Source: Clostridiales bacterium (GTDB taxonomy: Bacteria > Bacillota > Clostridia > Oscillospirales > Butyricicoccaceae). From it: a stretch of DNA of 37,206 bases. The notes below the pieces were generated by a model. It was given only the letters and a program-made list of their open reading frames with translations. It did no database searches and was not told where the DNA came from. The position numbers were made by a program, and so were the translations under genes. Position 1 is the stretch's first letter, and every line of letters starts with the position of its first letter. Below are positions 1 to 7,410 of this stretch, piece by piece. Where the stretch lies: positions 11,180-48,385 of the forward strand of contig DYCA01000003.1 of the NCBI GenBank assembly GCA_019418305.1, read 5' to 3'.

Positions 1-35
1 GTGTTCCCACAGCGCCTTTGCTGTTAACACCTTGC

Positions 36-64
36 ATTATAGCGGGCAAACCCTCCTTTGTCAA
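36..64 (-). promoter_or_regulatory. Consensus sigma-A promoter reading leftward out of the window
   Basis: Read on the minus strand there is TTGACA (64-59), a 17-base spacer and TATAAT (41-36), a perfect match to the consensus. Transcription would start near position 29 and leave the window at its left edge. The first 30 bases form an imperfect hairpin: GTGTT at 1-5 with AACAC at 26-30, and ACAGC at 9-13 with GCTGT at 20-24, so the transcript would begin with a stem-loop. The gene it serves is outside the window and unknown. It is divergent from the glutamate synthase promoter at 189-218. Confidence 0.7.
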
Positions 65-188: not shown

Positions 189-218
189 TTGACGCTGTCC
201 CCCGTTGTGCTATACAAT
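189..218 (+). promoter_or_regulatory. Promoter of the glutamate synthase operon
   Basis: TTGACG (189-194) is followed after 18 bases by TACAAT (213-218), or after 16 by TATACA (211-216). Start of transcription would be near 224-226, immediately before the big hairpin at 230-290. No other promoter-like sequence lies between here and the first gene of the operon at 408. Confidence 0.7.
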
Positions 219-225
219 AGGAAAA

Positions 226-293
226 GGACAAAGGCGTCCACGATAACCGGAGATCAAAAAAGGCGGTCTCCGGTTATCGTGGACGCCTTTTTT
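226..293 (+). terminator. Leader terminator (attenuator) of the glutamate synthase operon with six-base-loop hairpin
   Basis: Bases 230-253 are the exact reverse complement of 267-290, giving a 24-bp stem with a 13-base loop, and TTTTTT (288-293) follows, so this is a strong intrinsic terminator starting about five bases after the transcript start. Within it an alternative hairpin can form: GGAC (226-229), loop AAAGGC (230-235), GTCC (236-239). Its loop has A at position 1 and G at position 4, the pattern recognised by ANTAR antiterminators. A weaker second candidate is 242-255, loop ACCGGA, with only three pairs plus an A-G mismatch. Either would use the terminator's 5' arm. The remaining leader (294-407) holds only a small GCCGG/CCGGC hairpin at 344-356 and the ribosome site. 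The terminator is clear; the ANTAR reading is inference. Confidence 0.8.
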
Positions 294-407
294 ATATCGT
301 ATCCTATTTCTCCGCCCCGGCAGCGGTTTCCCGATGAAAGCGCGCCGGCGGCCGGCTTCCCCTGAGCGGGACGCCCTGCAACGCGCATATATAAAGGAGG
401 AAGCACC

Positions 408-1504
408 ATGTTGCAAAAAGAAGGCAAAATCCGTATTCCCGCCGGCTGTGCGATCTCCGGCATCTTCCACAAGGACGGCACACGGGAGAACGGCACGCGC
501 ATCATCGACTCCATCCGCACCATGCACGACCGTTCCAATGGTCTGGGCGGCGGCTTCGCCGGCTATGGTATCTATCCCGAGTACGCAGATTTCTATGCGT
601 TCCATGTATTCTATGATACGCAGAACGCCAAAGACGAATGTGAAAAAGAGCTGGAGCGGCACTTCGACATCGTCAATCTTTCCAAGATTCCGACACGCCG
701 CCATCCCCGCATCACTGACGAGCCGATGATTTGGCGCTATTTCGTCACCCCCCTGCACACCAAGCTGACGGCCAGTCAGCTTGACGAGCGCGAATTCGTC
801 GCCCGTTTCGTCATCCGCATCAACCACACGCTGGACGGCGCATACATCTTCTCTTCTGGCAAGAACATGGGCGTATTCAAGGCCTCCGGTTTCCCGGAGG
901 ACGTGGGCGAATTCTACCGGCTGGAGGACTACGAAGCCTATTCGTGGACCTGCCACGGCCGCTACCCGACCAACACCCCCGGCTGGTGGGGCGGCGCGCA
1001 TCCGTTCGCGCTGCTGGACACCACGGTCGTGCATAACGGCGAAATTTCTTCTTATGATGCAAACCGCCGTTTTATTGAAATGTTCGGCTATTCGTGCGAC
1101 CTGCTGACCGACACTGAGGTCATTACTTACATCGTCGATTATCTTGGCCGCAAGCTCGGGCTGACGCTCGAGGAGATCAGCCGCGTCATCGCCGCACCGT
1201 TCTGGTCTACCATTGAAAAGCAGGAGCCAGCCGAGCGTGAGCGACTGACCTATCTGCGCAACGCATTCGCCTCTCTGATGGTCACCGGTCCGTTCTCCAT
1301 TCTGGTTGGATACGAAGGCGGACTGATGGCGCTCAACGACCGCCTCAAGCTGCGCAGCATGGTAGTCGGCGAAAAGGACGAAACTGTATACATCGCCTCG
1401 GAAGAATGTGCCATCCGCGTGATTGCGCCCGAGCTTGACCGGGTATGGGCGCCGCGCGGCGGAGAGGCTGTCATTGTGAGCTTAAACGACGGAGGGAAGC
1501 AGTA

Positions 1505-1505
<1 letters not shown>
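408..1505 (+). CDS. Glutamate synthase glutaminase subunit (class II glutamine amidotransferase)
   Basis: This 365-residue cytoplasmic protein should hydrolyse glutamine and pass ammonia to the FMN core encoded next. It matches the stand-alone glutaminase domain of archaeal/clostridial split glutamate synthases. The likely nucleophile is Cys14 in an AGCAISG context, preceded by 13 residues that would need removal to free the N-terminal cysteine. Other family signatures seen are HGRYPTNTPG and HNGEISS, the substrate and oxyanion regions. The ATG at 408 has a GGAGG seven bases upstream. Its stop overlaps the next start by one base (TAATG), so the two are translationally coupled. It is the first gene of the operon behind the attenuator at 226-293. 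Confidence 0.9.
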
Positions 1506-3010
<1,505 letters not shown>

Positions 3011-3024
3011 GGAGGAAAGCAACG

Positions 3025-3453
3025 ATGAAACGGGTTTATGTCAACGAAAAATGGTGCCTCGGCTGCCATTTGTGCGAATATTACTGCGCCTTTGCCAACT
3101 CCGGCAAGTCCTCGATGGTCAAGGCGCTCAAAGACCATAAAATTGCGCCGCGTATCCGCATTGAGGAGCGCAACAACATTTCCTTTGCAGTCAACTGCCG
3201 CCACTGCACCGACCCGCTGTGCGTCAAGGGCTGCATTTCGGGCGCGCTGACCATTGTGGACGGTGCGGTGCAGATCGACTCGGACAAGTGCGTCGGCTGT
3301 TACACCTGCATCCTGTCCTGTCCATACGGTGCACTGTCCACCTCCAACGAGGGCGCTATCCAGAAATGCGAGCTGTGCGCCAAGAACGAGTTTGGCCAGC
3401 CCATGTGCGTACAGGGCTGTCCGAACAAGGCCATTGTATACGAGGAGAGGTGA
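3025..3453 (+). CDS. Four-cluster ferredoxin-like electron-transfer subunit
   Basis: This small 142-residue iron-sulfur protein has sixteen cysteines in four groups: Cys11-14-17-21, Cys58-61-66-70, Cys89-92-95-99 and Cys115-118-128-132. The pattern is that of HycB/DmsB-type polyferredoxins, able to hold four [4Fe-4S] clusters. It has no signal peptide, so it is cytoplasmic. It lies between the synthase core and the FAD oxidoreductase, 14 bases after one and 5 before the other, with AGGAGG before its ATG. It most likely carries electrons between the flavoprotein and the synthase core. It could also accept electrons from other reductases; that is not visible here. Confidence 0.85.
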   Translation: MKRVYVNEKWCLGCHLCEYYCAFANSGKSSMVKALKDHKIAPRIRIEERNNISFAVNCRHCTDPLCVKGCISGALTIVDGAVQIDSDKCVGCYTCILSCPYGALSTSNEGAIQKCELCAKNEFGQPMCVQGCPNKAIVYEER

Positions 3454-3458
3454 AACGC

Positions 3459-4697
3459 ATGAATTACGTGATTATTGGCAACGGCACCGCCGCGGTCGGC
3501 ACGATTGAGGGCATCCGCGCCGTCGATCCCACCGGTCCCATCACGGTCATTTCGGATGAGATTTATCCAGTGTACGGCCGTCCGCTGATCTCCTATCTGC
3601 TGCTCGGCAAAACGACCGAGGACAAAATGCTGCACTACCGTCCGGCCGACTTTTACGAGACAAACGGTGTTAAAACCATGCTGGGCCGCACCGTCACGAA
3701 AATCGACCCTGCGGCAAAGACCGTGCTGCTCGAAGGCGGCGAGACCGTCCCCTATGACAAGCTGTGCATCTGCACCGGCTCGCGGCCGTTCGTCCCGCCC
3801 ATGGAGGGGCTGGAAACCGTGCAGAACAAGACCAGCTTTATGACGCTCGACGATGCCAAGCGTCTGAACACCATGCTGGGTGAGGGCAACGGCAAGAGAG
3901 TGCTCATCATCGGCGCGGGCCTGATTGGTCTGAAATGTGCTGAGGGCATCTATCAGCGTGTCAAAGAGCTGACGGTCATCGACCTTGCCCCTCGCATTCT
4001 GCCTAACGTATTGACTGAAGCGCCTGCCGCCATTATCCAGAAGCACATCGAAAGCAAAGGCGTGCACTTCATCCTTGGCGACAGCGTCGCCCGCTTTGAC
4101 GGCGGCACCGCCACCCTGCAAAGCGGCGGCACGATTGACTTTGACGTGCTGGTCATCGCGGTCGGCGTGCGGCCGAACACCGAGCTTGCCGCCGAGGCAG
4201 GCTGCGAAGTGAACCGCGGCATCCTGACCGACAACCGCTCCGCCACCACCGTGCCGGACATTTACGCAGCGGGCGACTGCACGGTATCGCATGACATTAC
4301 TGCGGACACCGACCGTATTCTCGCCATCCTGCCTAACGCCTATATGCAGGGCGAAACCGCAGGCCGCAACATGGCGGGCGGCAAAACGTCCTTTGAAAAG
4401 GCCATCCCCATGAACGCATCCGGCTTTATGGGCCTGCATATGATTACTGCCGGCTCTTACGACGGCGACACCTATCTCGAGCAGGACGAAGAACACTACA
4501 AACTGCTGGTGACGCGCGACAATCATCTGGTCGGCTTCATCATGATCGGCGATGTGGACCGTGCGGGCATCTATACCTCTCTTATCCGCGAGCGCACCCC
4601 ACTCGACACCATCGACTTCGACCTCATTCGTGAAAAGCCGCAGCTGATGGCATTCTCCCGCGCCGAACGCGCGAAAAAGTTAGGAGGCGCACACTGA
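3459..4697 (+). CDS. FAD/NAD(P)-dependent oxidoreductase, probable glutamate synthase reductase subunit
   Basis: This 412-residue flavoprotein belongs to the pyridine-nucleotide-disulfide oxidoreductase superfamily. An FAD-binding start (VIIGNGTAA), an NAD-binding GAGLIGLKCAEG in the middle and the second FAD motif IYAAGDC are all visible. It resembles NirB-N/rubredoxin-reductase-like enzymes, not classical GltD, and has no fused ferredoxin domain; the separate polyferredoxin upstream may substitute. The ATG at 3459 is chosen because GGAGAGG lies eight bases upstream; a GTG at 3450 is in frame but overlaps that site. The stop overlaps the next start by one base (TGATG). The predicted role is feeding NAD(P)H electrons into the synthase. 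Confidence 0.85.
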   Translation: MNYVIIGNGTAAVGTIEGIRAVDPTGPITVISDEIYPVYGRPLISYLLLGKTTEDKMLHYRPADFYETNGVKTMLGRTVTKIDPAAKTVLLEGGETVPYDKLCICTGSRPFVPPMEGLETVQNKTSFMTLDDAKRLNTMLGEGNGKRVLIIGAGLIGLKCAEGIYQRVKELTVIDLAPRILPNVLTEAPAAIIQKHIESKGVHFILGDSVARFDGGTATLQSGGTIDFDVLVIAVGVRPNTELAAEAGCEVNRGILTDNRSATTVPDIYAAGDCTVSHDITADTDRILAILPNAYMQGETAGRNMAGGKTSFEKAIPMNASGFMGLHMITAGSYDGDTYLEQDEEHYKLLVTRDNHLVGFIMIGDVDRAGIYTSLIRERTPLDTIDFDLIREKPQLMAFSRAERAKKLGGAH

Positions 4698-5425
4698 TGA
4701 CCACCGTACAGGCAAACCTTACCTATTATCAGCAGCTCAATGAGCAGATTCGCGCGATTGACGACACCGACATCACGGTCGAAAACGTAATCGGCCAGCG
4801 ATACATCGGCTGCGGCTCAGCGGATCACACCATCACCATCCACGGCACGCCCGGCAACGGCCTTGGACAGTACCTGAGCGGATCGACCATCGAGGTGTTC
4901 GGCAACGCACAGGAAGCGGTCGGCGACACCATGAACAAAGGCGACATCATCATCCATGGCAACGTGGGCGATGCCTGCGGCTACGGCATGCGCGGCGGCC
5001 GCATCTTCATTCAAGGCGACTGCGGCTATCGCGGCGGCATTCATATGAAGGCCTATGAGCAGCACTTCCCCGTCATCGTTATCGGCGGCAAAGCCGGCTC
5101 GTTCCTCGGCGAATATCAGGCCGGCGGCCTGATTCTGGTACTGGGCCAAGGACAAAACGGCGCATACCCTGCGGGAAATTTCTGCGGCACCGGTATGCAC
5201 GGCGGCAAAATTGTGTTAAGATGTGATAAAGCCCCGGCCGGTCTGCCGCGTCAGGTACTGGTCAGCCCGGCGTCGCAGGCGGACCTCGACGGCATCGCGC
5301 CGTATGTTGAGGAATACTGCCGTCATTTCGGCGGCGACGCTGCCGCTCTGCTCGGGCAGCAATATTATGTACTGTCCCCCAATCCGGAGGCCGGTTACCA
5401 TCAGCTTTATACCTATGAATCCTGA
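4697..5425 (+). CDS. Glutamate synthase GXGXG-domain subunit
   Basis: This 242-residue protein corresponds to the C-terminal structural domain of large-subunit glutamate synthases, a right-handed beta-helix built from repeated G-x-x-G-x-G units. Such repeats run through the protein, for example GNGLGQYLSG, GDACGYGMRGG and GGKAGSFLGEYQAGG. In the split enzyme it packs against the glutaminase and FMN subunits; it has no chemistry of its own. The start overlaps the previous stop by one base and has AGGAGG about nine bases upstream. With the four upstream genes it completes a full glutamate synthase. Confidence 0.9.
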   Translation: MTTVQANLTYYQQLNEQIRAIDDTDITVENVIGQRYIGCGSADHTITIHGTPGNGLGQYLSGSTIEVFGNAQEAVGDTMNKGDIIIHGNVGDACGYGMRGGRIFIQGDCGYRGGIHMKAYEQHFPVIVIGGKAGSFLGEYQAGGLILVLGQGQNGAYPAGNFCGTGMHGGKIVLRCDKAPAGLPRQVLVSPASQADLDGIAPYVEEYCRHFGGDAAALLGQQYYVLSPNPEAGYHQLYTYES

Positions 5426-5475: not shown

Positions 5476-6795
5476 ATGGATACCACCATGCACGAAGTCA
5501 TACAATTTATCGAGGAGAATGACGTTAAATTCATCCGTCTGGCCTTTTGCGATATCTTCGGCAACCAGAAAAATATTGCCATCATGCCAACCGAGCTGAC
5601 CCGTGCGTTTGAACACGGCATCCACTTCAATGCATCCTCGCTGCGCGGCTTCCTCAACGTGGACGCCTCCGACCTGCTGTTATTCCCCGACCCGGCAACG
5701 CTGTCCGTGCTGCCGTGGCGACCTGCACAGGGACGTGTGGTGCGTTTCTACTGCGATATCCGGTATCCGGACGGCACGCCCTTCGAGGGCGACGGTCGCC
5801 GTCTGCTCCGTGAAGCAAGCCGCCGCGCCCGTCAGTCGGGCTATTCCATCACAATGGGTACGGCAAGCGAGTTTTACCTGTTCGAGCTGGATGAAAACGG
5901 GCATCCCACCATCATTCCACACGACCACGGCGAATATTTCGACGTGGCGCCGCTGGACAAGGCCGAAAACGTGCGTCGCCAAATCTGCCTGACGCTCGAG
6001 GAAATGAATATCCAGCCGGAATCTTCGCATCATGAGCAAGGCCCCGGACAGCACGAAATCGACTTCCGCTATGCAGAAGCGCTTGAGGCAGCGGATAATT
6101 TTGTCACCTTTAAATGGGTGGTCAAATCCATGGCCGCATCGAGCGGCTTGTACGCTTCGTTCCTGCCAAAACCCCTGCCCAGCATTCCCGGCAGCGGCCT
6201 GCACCTGTCCATTTCCATCATGCGGAATGGAGAAAACCTGTTCCATCCGGGCTTTGACCAAAGCGAAGCAGGACGCAGCTTTGTTGCGGGCATTTTACAG
6301 CACGCAGCGGAAATGACCATATTCGGCAATCCGCTGACCAACTCGTTCCAACGTCTGGGCGAGTTTGAAGCACCCAAGTATATTACCTGGTCGCATCAGA
6401 ACCGCTCGCCGCTGATTGCCGTGCCACTGGCAAACGGCAAACTGGCCAACCGCATGAAAGTACGCTCGTTCGACGGCTGCATCAATCCCTATATCGTTTT
6501 TGCTCTGCTCATCCACGCGGGTCTGGACGGCATCGAACAACACCTCCCCCTTGCTCCCGCGTGCAATGACAACCTGTTCACCGCCTCGGACGCGGTGCGC
6601 GCCCAGTATCAGGCACTGCCCGGTTCGTTGTGCGAAGCCATCCGCTGCGCACAGGACAGCCCCTTTATCGCCCGTCACCTTCCGGTCAAAACGCGCGAAG
6701 CGTTTTTCGCTGCCAAGCAGGTCGAGCATGACCGCATTGCGCTGGCGGACGACCGTTTTTCCGCTGAGCGTGCGCTGTACTTCGAGCGCTACTGA
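5476..6795 (+). CDS. Glutamine-synthetase-like protein with degraded active site
   Basis: This is a 439-residue type I glutamine synthetase homologue of normal length with both beta-grasp and catalytic domains. Several signatures are intact: SHHEQGPGQHEIDF with Glu187 and Glu194, GSGLH with His243, FEAPKY with Glu298, NRS with Arg310, and Arg330. By motif alignment four residues needed in enterobacterial enzymes are changed: Asn52 (for Asp50), Ala130 (for Glu129), Ala315 (for Arg344) and Lys328 (for Glu357). Two of the three ligands of the second metal site are therefore missing. It may be a non-catalytic sensor or regulator; reduced or altered activity is also possible. ATG 5476 has AGGAG ten bases upstream. 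It sits between the glutamate synthase and the ANTAR gene. Confidence 0.85.
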   Translation: MDTTMHEVIQFIEENDVKFIRLAFCDIFGNQKNIAIMPTELTRAFEHGIHFNASSLRGFLNVDASDLLLFPDPATLSVLPWRPAQGRVVRFYCDIRYPDGTPFEGDGRRLLREASRRARQSGYSITMGTASEFYLFELDENGHPTIIPHDHGEYFDVAPLDKAENVRRQICLTLEEMNIQPESSHHEQGPGQHEIDFRYAEALEAADNFVTFKWVVKSMAASSGLYASFLPKPLPSIPGSGLHLSISIMRNGENLFHPGFDQSEAGRSFVAGILQHAAEMTIFGNPLTNSFQRLGEFEAPKYITWSHQNRSPLIAVPLANGKLANRMKVRSFDGCINPYIVFALLIHAGLDGIEQHLPLAPACNDNLFTASDAVRAQYQALPGSLCEAIRCAQDSPFIARHLPVKTREAFFAAKQVEHDRIALADDRFSAERALYFERY

Positions 6796-6834: not shown

Positions 6835-7410
6835 TTGGAACGCATTATGATCGTTTCCGCCACGCAAAAATCCCATGCCATGCTAACACAATTTCTCACC
6901 TCCTGCGGTGTGCAGGCCAAAACTGTTGCGGTCTCCTCCGGTTCAGAGGCCCGCCGCACACTGGTGGACGGCGACTTTGATCTGGTTCTGGTCAATACGC
7001 CGCTGCCGGATGAGTTCGGCCACGAGCTGGCGCAAACCGCTGCGTGCGACACGCTTGCAGGCGTTATCCTGCTCGCGAAAGCAGAGGTAGCCGACAGCGT
7101 TGCCGAAAAAGTAGAGGACGACGGCGTGTTCGTCATACCCAAGCCACTTTCGCGCGTGCTGTTTTTACAGGCACTGCGCATGACGCGCGCCGCACGTTCG
7201 CGGCTGACCGGCCTGCGCAAGGAAAACCGTCGTTTACAGCAGCGCATCGAGGATATCCGTCTGGTTGACCGCGCCAAGTGCCTGCTGATTGAATGCTGCT
7301 CGATGAGTGAGCCCGAAGCACACGCCTATATCGAACAACAGGCCATGAATCAGCGGCGCACCAAGCGGGAAATTGCGGAACATATTATCTCCGGCGGCAC
7401 GCCGGAATGA
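6835..7410 (+). CDS. ANTAR-domain antiterminator with pseudo-receiver
   Basis: This 191-residue cytoplasmic regulator has a receiver-like domain (about 1-115), a helical linker rich in charged residues (115-140) and a C-terminal ANTAR RNA-binding domain (about 130-187, with RAKCLLIE, EPEAHAYIEQQAM and TKREIAEHII). The receiver lacks the acidic pair (IVSATQ instead of a DD motif) and has Asn54 where phospho-aspartate is expected; Lys103 is kept. It therefore probably does not respond to phosphorylation. A TTG start is chosen because AAGGAGGG lies nine bases before it, whereas the in-frame ATG at 6847 is too far away. ANTAR proteins let polymerase read through leader terminators by binding paired six-base-loop hairpins. 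The operon's own leader (226-293) is the obvious candidate target. Confidence 0.85.
   Translation: MERIMIVSATQKSHAMLTQFLTSCGVQAKTVAVSSGSEARRTLVDGDFDLVLVNTPLPDEFGHELAQTAACDTLAGVILLAKAEVADSVAEKVEDDGVFVIPKPLSRVLFLQALRMTRAARSRLTGLRKENRRLQQRIEDIRLVDRAKCLLIECCSMSEPEAHAYIEQQAMNQRRTKREIAEHIISGGTPE

Follow-up and report, generated by a model that had tools for sequence, protein, structure and literature searches.

Among the known systems in which ANTAR proteins act as antiterminators, EutV/EutW of the Enterococcus eut genes is structurally the closest to the locus reported here. Excerpts of the papers on EutV state that antitermination needs both hairpins of the leader and their spacing (PMC3369931, PMC8934654). 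According to Walshe 2022 (PMC8934654), one hexaloop suffices for binding by EutV, whereas read-through requires both; that work calls for further study of single hexaloops, asks about their function and leaves open why two hairpins are needed. The requirement for both EutV hairpins argues against one hexaloop being sufficient. Similarly, the reported leaders of AmiR (Pseudomonas AmiR-AmiC) and NasR (Klebsiella) have P1 and P2 (PMC3369936). Both surveys of ANTAR target RNAs, as excerpted, required two hairpins (PMC3369931, PMC8164766), so that a widespread one-hairpin class would be missed by them. Regarding nitrogen genes, the dual-hairpin model of Ramesh 2012 (PMC3369931) predicted targets on Desulfotomaculum glutamate synthase genes, and NitR of Clostridium saccharobutylicum is reported to antiterminate the GS/GOGAT genes upon nitrogen limitation (Stutz 2007, cited in PMC6316151).

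The leader described here precedes a glutamate synthase operon in a 37,206-nucleotide stretch of DNA from a Clostridiales bacterium (hereafter the window). It shares with EutV/EutW a hexaloop with A1 and G4 that overlaps a terminator, the fold of the ANTAR protein and, apparently, most residues of the pocket that accepts G4. It differs from that system in having one hairpin instead of two, located right where transcription is predicted to begin, in a receiver domain devoid of the phosphate-accepting Asp, and in its association with nitrogen-assimilation genes. A pseudo-receiver ANTAR protein is also found in AmiR (PMC3369936), which in our alignment carries His at the position of EutV Tyr164, as most regulators studied here do; by contrast, AmiR-AmiC and NasR have the P1 and P2 leaders mentioned above and receive their input through an amide receptor in the first case and a nitrate domain in the second. 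NitR, likewise an ANTAR protein acting in GS/GOGAT antitermination according to the excerpted source (PMC6316151), is probably the same physiological and regulatory system, and part of the present finding may thus already be contained in the original NitR paper.

What is new here is that the terminator-excluding hexaloop stands alone. In the titles and abstract openings listed by searches of open-access papers, a scope that does not comprise the original NitR paper, no description of a one-hairpin ANTAR antiterminator was found. We consider it quite probable that ANTAR control with a one-hairpin target and a pseudo-receiver regulator underlies this attenuator, and that the leader belongs to a shared nitrogen regulon. 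We also lean, with less assurance, towards the broader proposal that across Clostridia a nitrogen regulon is run by one dead-receiver ANTAR protein whose targets, a single hairpin each, occupy the first bases to be transcribed, one hexaloop being enough. If true, such a regulon would break the two-hairpin rule that underlies the published ANTAR-RNA searches as they are described in the excerpts.

The operon lies on the + strand of the window. Its first gene encodes the glutamine amidotransferase domain protein of a split glutamate synthase (408..1505, Pfam GATase_2) and is followed by the genes for the catalytic protein with a ferredoxin domain (1502..3010, Pfam Glu_synthase), a 4Fe-4S ferredoxin-like protein (3025..3453, from the Pfam scan of the operon), a pyridine nucleotide-disulphide oxidoreductase (3480..4697), the GXGXG-domain protein of the split enzyme (4697..5425) and a type I glutamine synthetase (GSI, 5476..6795; the start codon at about 5476 is our choice, the domain scan having been run from 5470). 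The operon ends with the proposed antiterminator, a regulator composed of a pseudo-receiver, a coiled coil and an ANTAR domain (6835..7410). The GSI gene lies directly 5' of the ANTAR gene. GSI again precedes the ANTAR gene in those inspected loci of relatives in which both genes were located, L239, with the two genes on opposite strands, being the exception. The first protein of the operon is 97-99% identical to that of six other loci (L001-L004, L037 and L038), which marks the source of the window as an Agathobaculum-like bacterium.

The promoter that the initial annotation of this region had proposed, TTGACG-18-TACAAT, was located by consensus scan at 189..218 (+) and matches 10 of the 12 consensus bases. 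The transcript is predicted to start at about 225-226, at the foot of a hairpin, GGAC-AAAGGC-GTCC, that occupies positions 226..239 (+), with the stem formed by 226-229 and 236-239 and the loop AAAGGC (230-235) presenting A1 at 230 and G4 at 233. The annotation had described this hairpin too, and it folds alone with -4.0 kcal/mol (RNAfold); an A1/G4 hexaloop carried by a stem of 3 bp or more is a feature of the dual-hexaloop ANTAR target RNAs, and 226-239 has it. Immediately overlapping it is an intrinsic terminator at 230..293 (+), whose stem, said before to be 24 bp long, is indeed perfect and followed by a T run (288-293) and reaches 26 bp (230-255/265-290) around a 9-nt loop. Its folding energy is -49.5 kcal/mol, compared to a mean of -18.3 for shuffled sequences (z = -11.2). 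It should be noted that a simple terminator scan missed this structure, the loop limit of the scan being 8. Positions 230-239 are common to the 5' arm of the terminator and the hexaloop hairpin, and by folding the hairpin overlaps and excludes the base of the 26-bp stem. As judged from these mutually exclusive folds, the leader is a real attenuator, a reading in which the annotation was right. At the gathering score, the window gave no match to any Rfam family, and neither did the leaders of 10 relative loci, in which the sole matches were an FMN riboswitch and tRNAs.

When the hairpin was forced in folding of the window leader, the residual terminator stem was 16 bp long and ended 7 nt before the T run. 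In six of the seven leaders modelled in this way the residual stem lay 7-9 nt from the T run, and the seventh, a leader of glutamine synthetase III (GSIII), retained a 3-bp terminator remnant and formed a new 4-bp hairpin. The geometry with the forced hairpin is the one described for ANTAR antitermination in the excerpts of PMC3369936. The most likely mechanism is a competition between the hairpin at the transcript start and the terminator, a switch that would most likely be held open by the operon's own regulator. RNA polymerase would start at about 225, and the first 14 nt or so would fold into the hexaloop hairpin. If nothing held it, its loop and 3' arm would be absorbed into the 26-bp terminator and transcription would stop at 288-293. 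If the 6835-7410 regulator were active, its ANTAR domains would grip the hexaloop with G4 in their pocket, which would shorten the terminator stem from 26 to 16 bp, leave 7 nt between its foot and the T run, and allow read-through into the genes for glutamate synthase, GSI and the regulator itself. A closed loop in which the regulator opens its own operon, as the annotation had suggested, is likely under this mechanism. One hexaloop could be enough since no time for recruitment would be needed: the hairpin emerges before the rest of the leader and at the same time makes up the terminator's foot.

The presence of an ANTAR protein in the operon, also noted in the annotation, was confirmed with Pfam PF03861, which matches the C-terminal domain of the 6835-7410 product with E = 3e-16 and passes the cut-off. 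The AlphaFold2 model (mean pLDDT 93.5) shows a receiver, a coiled coil and a three-helix ANTAR domain, and its top Foldseek match is the EutV-RNA complex 6ww6_B (E = 3.2e-12). The list of structure matches was full of receiver domains and was uninformative on the signal. In an alignment of 36 sequences, which includes at least one ANTAR protein other than the glt one (L237) and onto which we mapped the EutV residue numbering with the help of the EutV literature, the positions that contact G4 appear to be kept for the most part. K149 and E160 are found in 36/36 sequences and M172, the plug, in 35/36; the position of Y164 holds His in 31, Tyr in 4 and Phe in 1. By contrast, the position of R142, another residue that holds G4, is Arg in only 6/36 and Ile in 26/36, and the backbone contacts R168 (Glu in 30/36) and R177 (Thr in 24/36) are mostly lost as well. 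The replacement of these three EutV contacts speaks against the proposed mechanism.

The phosphate-accepting Asp is replaced by Asn in the protein of the window; at this position the 36 sequences have Asn (31), Asp (4) or Ser (1). In view of this loss, the switching signal for the regulator probably comes from a protein partner or a ligand and not from a kinase, with GSI or PII as the obvious candidates; control by a partner would resemble that of AmiR by AmiC. At the former phosphorylation site, the codons of NTPLPDEFG (6994-7020) specify a motif, N-x-P-L-x-D-x-x-G, whose P, L, D and G are present in all 14 aligned sequences. This conservation suggests a new binding role for the pseudo-receiver.

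The same intergenic region contains a second, divergent element that the initial annotation missed. On the - strand, a promoter (TTGACA-17-TATAAT, 36..64) with 12/12 consensus bases in the consensus scan is assigned to GSIII by homology with relatives. It is followed by another single hexaloop, ACAGC-AAAGGC-GCTGT (9..24, - strand). The window holds only the start of this GSIII unit, the terminator lying past its edge; the complete unit is seen in relatives, for instance at L001:8572-8617 on the minus strand. A recount anchored on genes looked for a one-hairpin unit in the 700 nt upstream of each gene and detected it at 32 of 36 GSIII loci (all but L029, L033, L034 and L039) and at 22 of 23 Amt-PII loci (all but L016). 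The stems of these units differ in sequence from that of the glt unit and the loops are of the same kind; the genes were identified by Pfam for L001. The proposed regulator would act in the same way on the divergent GSIII, and the other amino-nitrogen genes with a unit, Amt-PII among them, would be its targets as well. In L020 (5782-5952, minus) and L035 (8637-8759, minus), two complete hexaloop-terminator units stand in tandem before one gene, like serial gates.

Further members of this group were found in genome searches. Among the matches listed for five whole-genome searches, the unit precedes Lrp/AsnC in two genomes, class I/II aminotransferases in two and an acetylornithine-type aminotransferase in one; a unit before a sodium symporter (L113, one genome) has no clear promoter directly upstream. 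In these five genomes the covariance model R1 scored 150 of the 707-1373 first-look candidates per genome, so that some units escaped it, for instance the one before GSIII in G001. A 14-mer of the GSIII type, CAGCAAAGGYGCTG, gave 83 matches in 67 of the 391 genomes of the class that were searched, compared to 7 for its reversed control (hand count). Among the stretches inspected around it (30 + 18 loci), those bearing a terminator mostly precede GSIII, AsnA, GatC or Amt, as identified by tblastn and, for one AsnA and one GatC, by Pfam; other matches lie in apparent coding sequence and have no terminator. The glt-type 14-mer, searched over 295 genomes of the order, matched 184 of them and was uninformative since the reversed control was about equal by eye. 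Among the matches listed for a gapped-pattern search, the reversed control gave about half as many to equally many matches, and 20 terminator-like matches were picked by eye for inspection; inspection of the matches to a CAATGG pattern revealed no new unit.

Where the glt leader lacks the unit, a unit was found instead before GSI (L239, L240 and L243) or GSIII (G381, G454 and G610). In four leader-negative genomes whose ANTAR regions were inspected (G535, G374, G313 and G332), it precedes GSI in three, and the stretch from G332 excluded glt. GS, GOGAT, Amt-PII, AsnA and GatC appear to share a single type of RNA switch, which provides a concrete regulon and a candidate path for nitrogen signals in butyrate-forming gut bacteria. 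In L255, L258, L266, L267 and L269, AsnA followed directly by GSIII lies behind one hexaloop unit, forming an ammonia-assimilation pair. In L246-L250, L264 and L270, the unit precedes GatC, the first gene of the tRNA amidotransferase, and glutamine-dependent tRNA charging may be part of the nitrogen regulon.

ANTAR genes accompany the element. The protein encoded by the first gene of the operon is found in 90 of the 391 genomes, of which 80 were scanned (2 were dropped, glt being cut at its start, and 8 because their leaders were taken as near-identical). An ANTAR gene is present in 78 of these 80 glt-positive genomes, exactly one in 72, and in 15 of 16 genomes of a further set of loci. In the first five genomes, G001 and G005 have only the ANTAR gene of the operon and the others have 2, 2 and 4. 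Among the 30 loci with more than 8.3 kb of sequence, the ANTAR gene lies downstream of glt in 29, the exception being L030; in L030 and L031 it was not found within 10 and 5.7 kb downstream of glt, respectively, and each genome has one elsewhere. In glt-negative genomes, ANTAR genes were detected in 9/20 and 10/35 (two sets, the second chosen for the absence of the 14-mer).

A different RNA-binding factor could hold the hairpin, with ANTAR genes merely travelling with nitrogen operons, all the more as binding of the hairpin by the ANTAR protein is predicted from sequence and as the 19/55 glt-negative genomes with an ANTAR gene indicate that such genes are common in the class. We regard this as unlikely. 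The A1/G4 hexaloop is a known ANTAR signature in the excerpts of PMC3369931, most residues of the G4 pocket appear to be kept in the regulator, and the Rfam scan of the window offered no other RNA family. Moreover, the linkage between element and ANTAR gene persists in genomes that lack this glt gene: among glt-negative genomes, an ANTAR gene is present in 10 of the 11 in which CAGCAAAGGYGCTG is coupled to a terminator, compared to 5/16 with an uncoupled match and 15/51 with no match (10/11 versus 20/67, Fisher p = 2e-4). In these counts G338, which looks coupled by eye, was left among the uncoupled as it fails the automatic terminator rule, and one of the two 14-mer sites of G419 was inspected. 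G348 and G570 have a unit and no ANTAR match, and G301 has glt, no ANTAR gene and an aberrant leader. In L033, from a Dysosmobacter MAG, a glt genome without an ANTAR match, the terminator of the leader (about 1214-1280) seems to absorb the whole hairpin; this aberrant leader possibly reflects decay after loss of the regulator.

If the regulator is indeed the ANTAR protein of the operon, its dimer could still find two hexaloops in trans by bridging two nascent transcripts, for example those of the divergent glt and GSIII units, whose -35 boxes are 125 bp apart. Divergent single hexaloops occur in many loci, and the two bound loops in the EutV crystal belong to different RNA molecules (PMC8934654). 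However, pairing in trans is quite improbable. The Lrp and aminotransferase units and many of the GSIII, AsnA and GatC units were located one by one in the inspected stretches, the tandem units of L020 and L035 being exceptions, and the authors of the EutV work consider binding in trans improbable for kinetic reasons (same paper).

The remaining question is whether the operon's own leader carries one target hairpin or two in cis. The initial annotation had proposed a dual-hexaloop target in which the regulator binds both 226-239 and a second hairpin at 242-255 (+). In favour of this proposal, the loop ACCGGA (246-251) has A1 and G4, and its spacing of 2 nt falls within the 2-25 nt given in the excerpts of PMC8164766. 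However, A245 and G252, which would close that loop, do not pair, and RNAfold leaves the segment GATAACCGGAGATC unpaired at 0.0 kcal/mol. For comparison with relatives, homologous leaders were chosen by their first-gene protein and not by their RNA: 40 of the 41 loci from the protein search (L040, which has no gene start, was left out) and 88 leaders from the 90 genomes, one of them a locus already in the set, give 128 leaders including the window. The set contains duplicates (L147 and L022, for example), for which the use of 54 distinct 18-mers allows, while kinship among them remains.

The choice of a site in each leader relied on the loop motif, closing C-G pair included, and on terminator complementarity; the stem beyond that pair played no part in it. 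The loop motif with a matching terminator was found in 112 of the 128 glutamate synthase leaders and was absent from 16. The stem reaches at least 4 bp in 108 of the 112 chosen sites. Stem pairs 2-5 are formed in 418 of 448 cells (93%), compared to 139-224 of 448 (31-50%) when the arms are slid by 1-2 bases. Of the 54 distinct sequences, 53 form pair 3 (36.9 on average and 44 at most in the shuffles), 50 form pair 4 (44.2 and 47) and 38 form pair 5 (24.2 and 35), whereas pairs 2 and 6, formed in 53 (maximum 53) and 29 (maximum 32), are not above the shuffles. The stem types include GAAC/GTTC, GGAC/GTCC, GAGC/GTTC and AAAC/GTTT. In 45 picked elements the covariation score was 0.724 compared to 0.238 after shuffling, a value that is partly circular as the picking scan required a stem, and the terminator was 99.3% paired. 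Most leaders inspected have the 5' arm of the hairpin outside the principal stem of the terminator, so that the terminator does not explain the covariation of this arm with the 3' arm.

Regarding the loop, G4 and the closing C-G pair belong to the search motif, so that their constancy in the counts over 112 and 113 leaders is not independent. In the 40 protein-chosen leaders examined by eye, G4 is present in 40/40 and A1 in 36/40, G1 replacing it in L016, L030, L033 and L034. In 86 of 113 leaders, 6-10 nt separate the end of the best -10 box from the hairpin; the box has another position in 18 leaders and none was detected in 9, this count including L233 (GCCC-GATGAA-GGGC, probably a chance match in a genome without an ANTAR match). 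Such a distance leaves hardly any room for an upstream hexaloop.

Second A1/G4 hexaloops are slightly more frequent than expected, which may be read in favour of the dual form. On stems of at least 3 bp, one was found within 34 nt 3' of the first in 6 of 41 leaders (3.3 expected), downstream in 16 of 112 (10.0 expected; at least 4 bp, 6 compared to 3.8) and upstream in 9 of 110 (7.9 expected; at least 4 bp, 5 compared to 2.9). These counts are a slight excess among related sequences and are far from conservation. The GSIII and Amt units inspected by eye show one hexaloop each. Around further ANTAR genes, looking for dual hexaloops yielded a single weak case (L243) and nothing clear enough to serve as a positive control. 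The hairpin at 242-255 was rejected, as it neither folds nor is conserved. The first hexaloop is of the ANTAR type, as annotated; under the refuting condition that the annotation itself had set, the two-hairpin form is refuted since the relatives retain the terminator with a single loop, and we give it very little credence. The leader with one ANTAR hairpin belongs to a large and compact set, with one hairpin, about 40-90 nt and mostly one ANTAR gene per genome, that would allow a direct test of single hexaloops.

That the divergent genes are separated by an ordinary strong terminator or insulator, at whose foot a hairpin arose by chance, is extremely improbable: AAAGG...CCTTTT terminators are common at gene ends, but the stem covaries in 54 distinct sequences and, of 22 listed terminators, 13 have only 1-2 bp at the position of the hexaloop and L100 has 3 bp with no promoter seen by eye, whereas L095, L096, L103, L112 and L114 have 5-6 bp and a promoter-like box just upstream (by eye). 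Three of the 22 are intermediate, L108 (4 bp, no visible promoter), L110 (4 bp) and L111 (3 bp), and were excluded from the members of the regulon. The 4-bp hexaloop of L110, found in a single genome (G002), lies before SpoIIGA at 558; it may be due to chance and, if true, would link the nitrogen state to sporulation.
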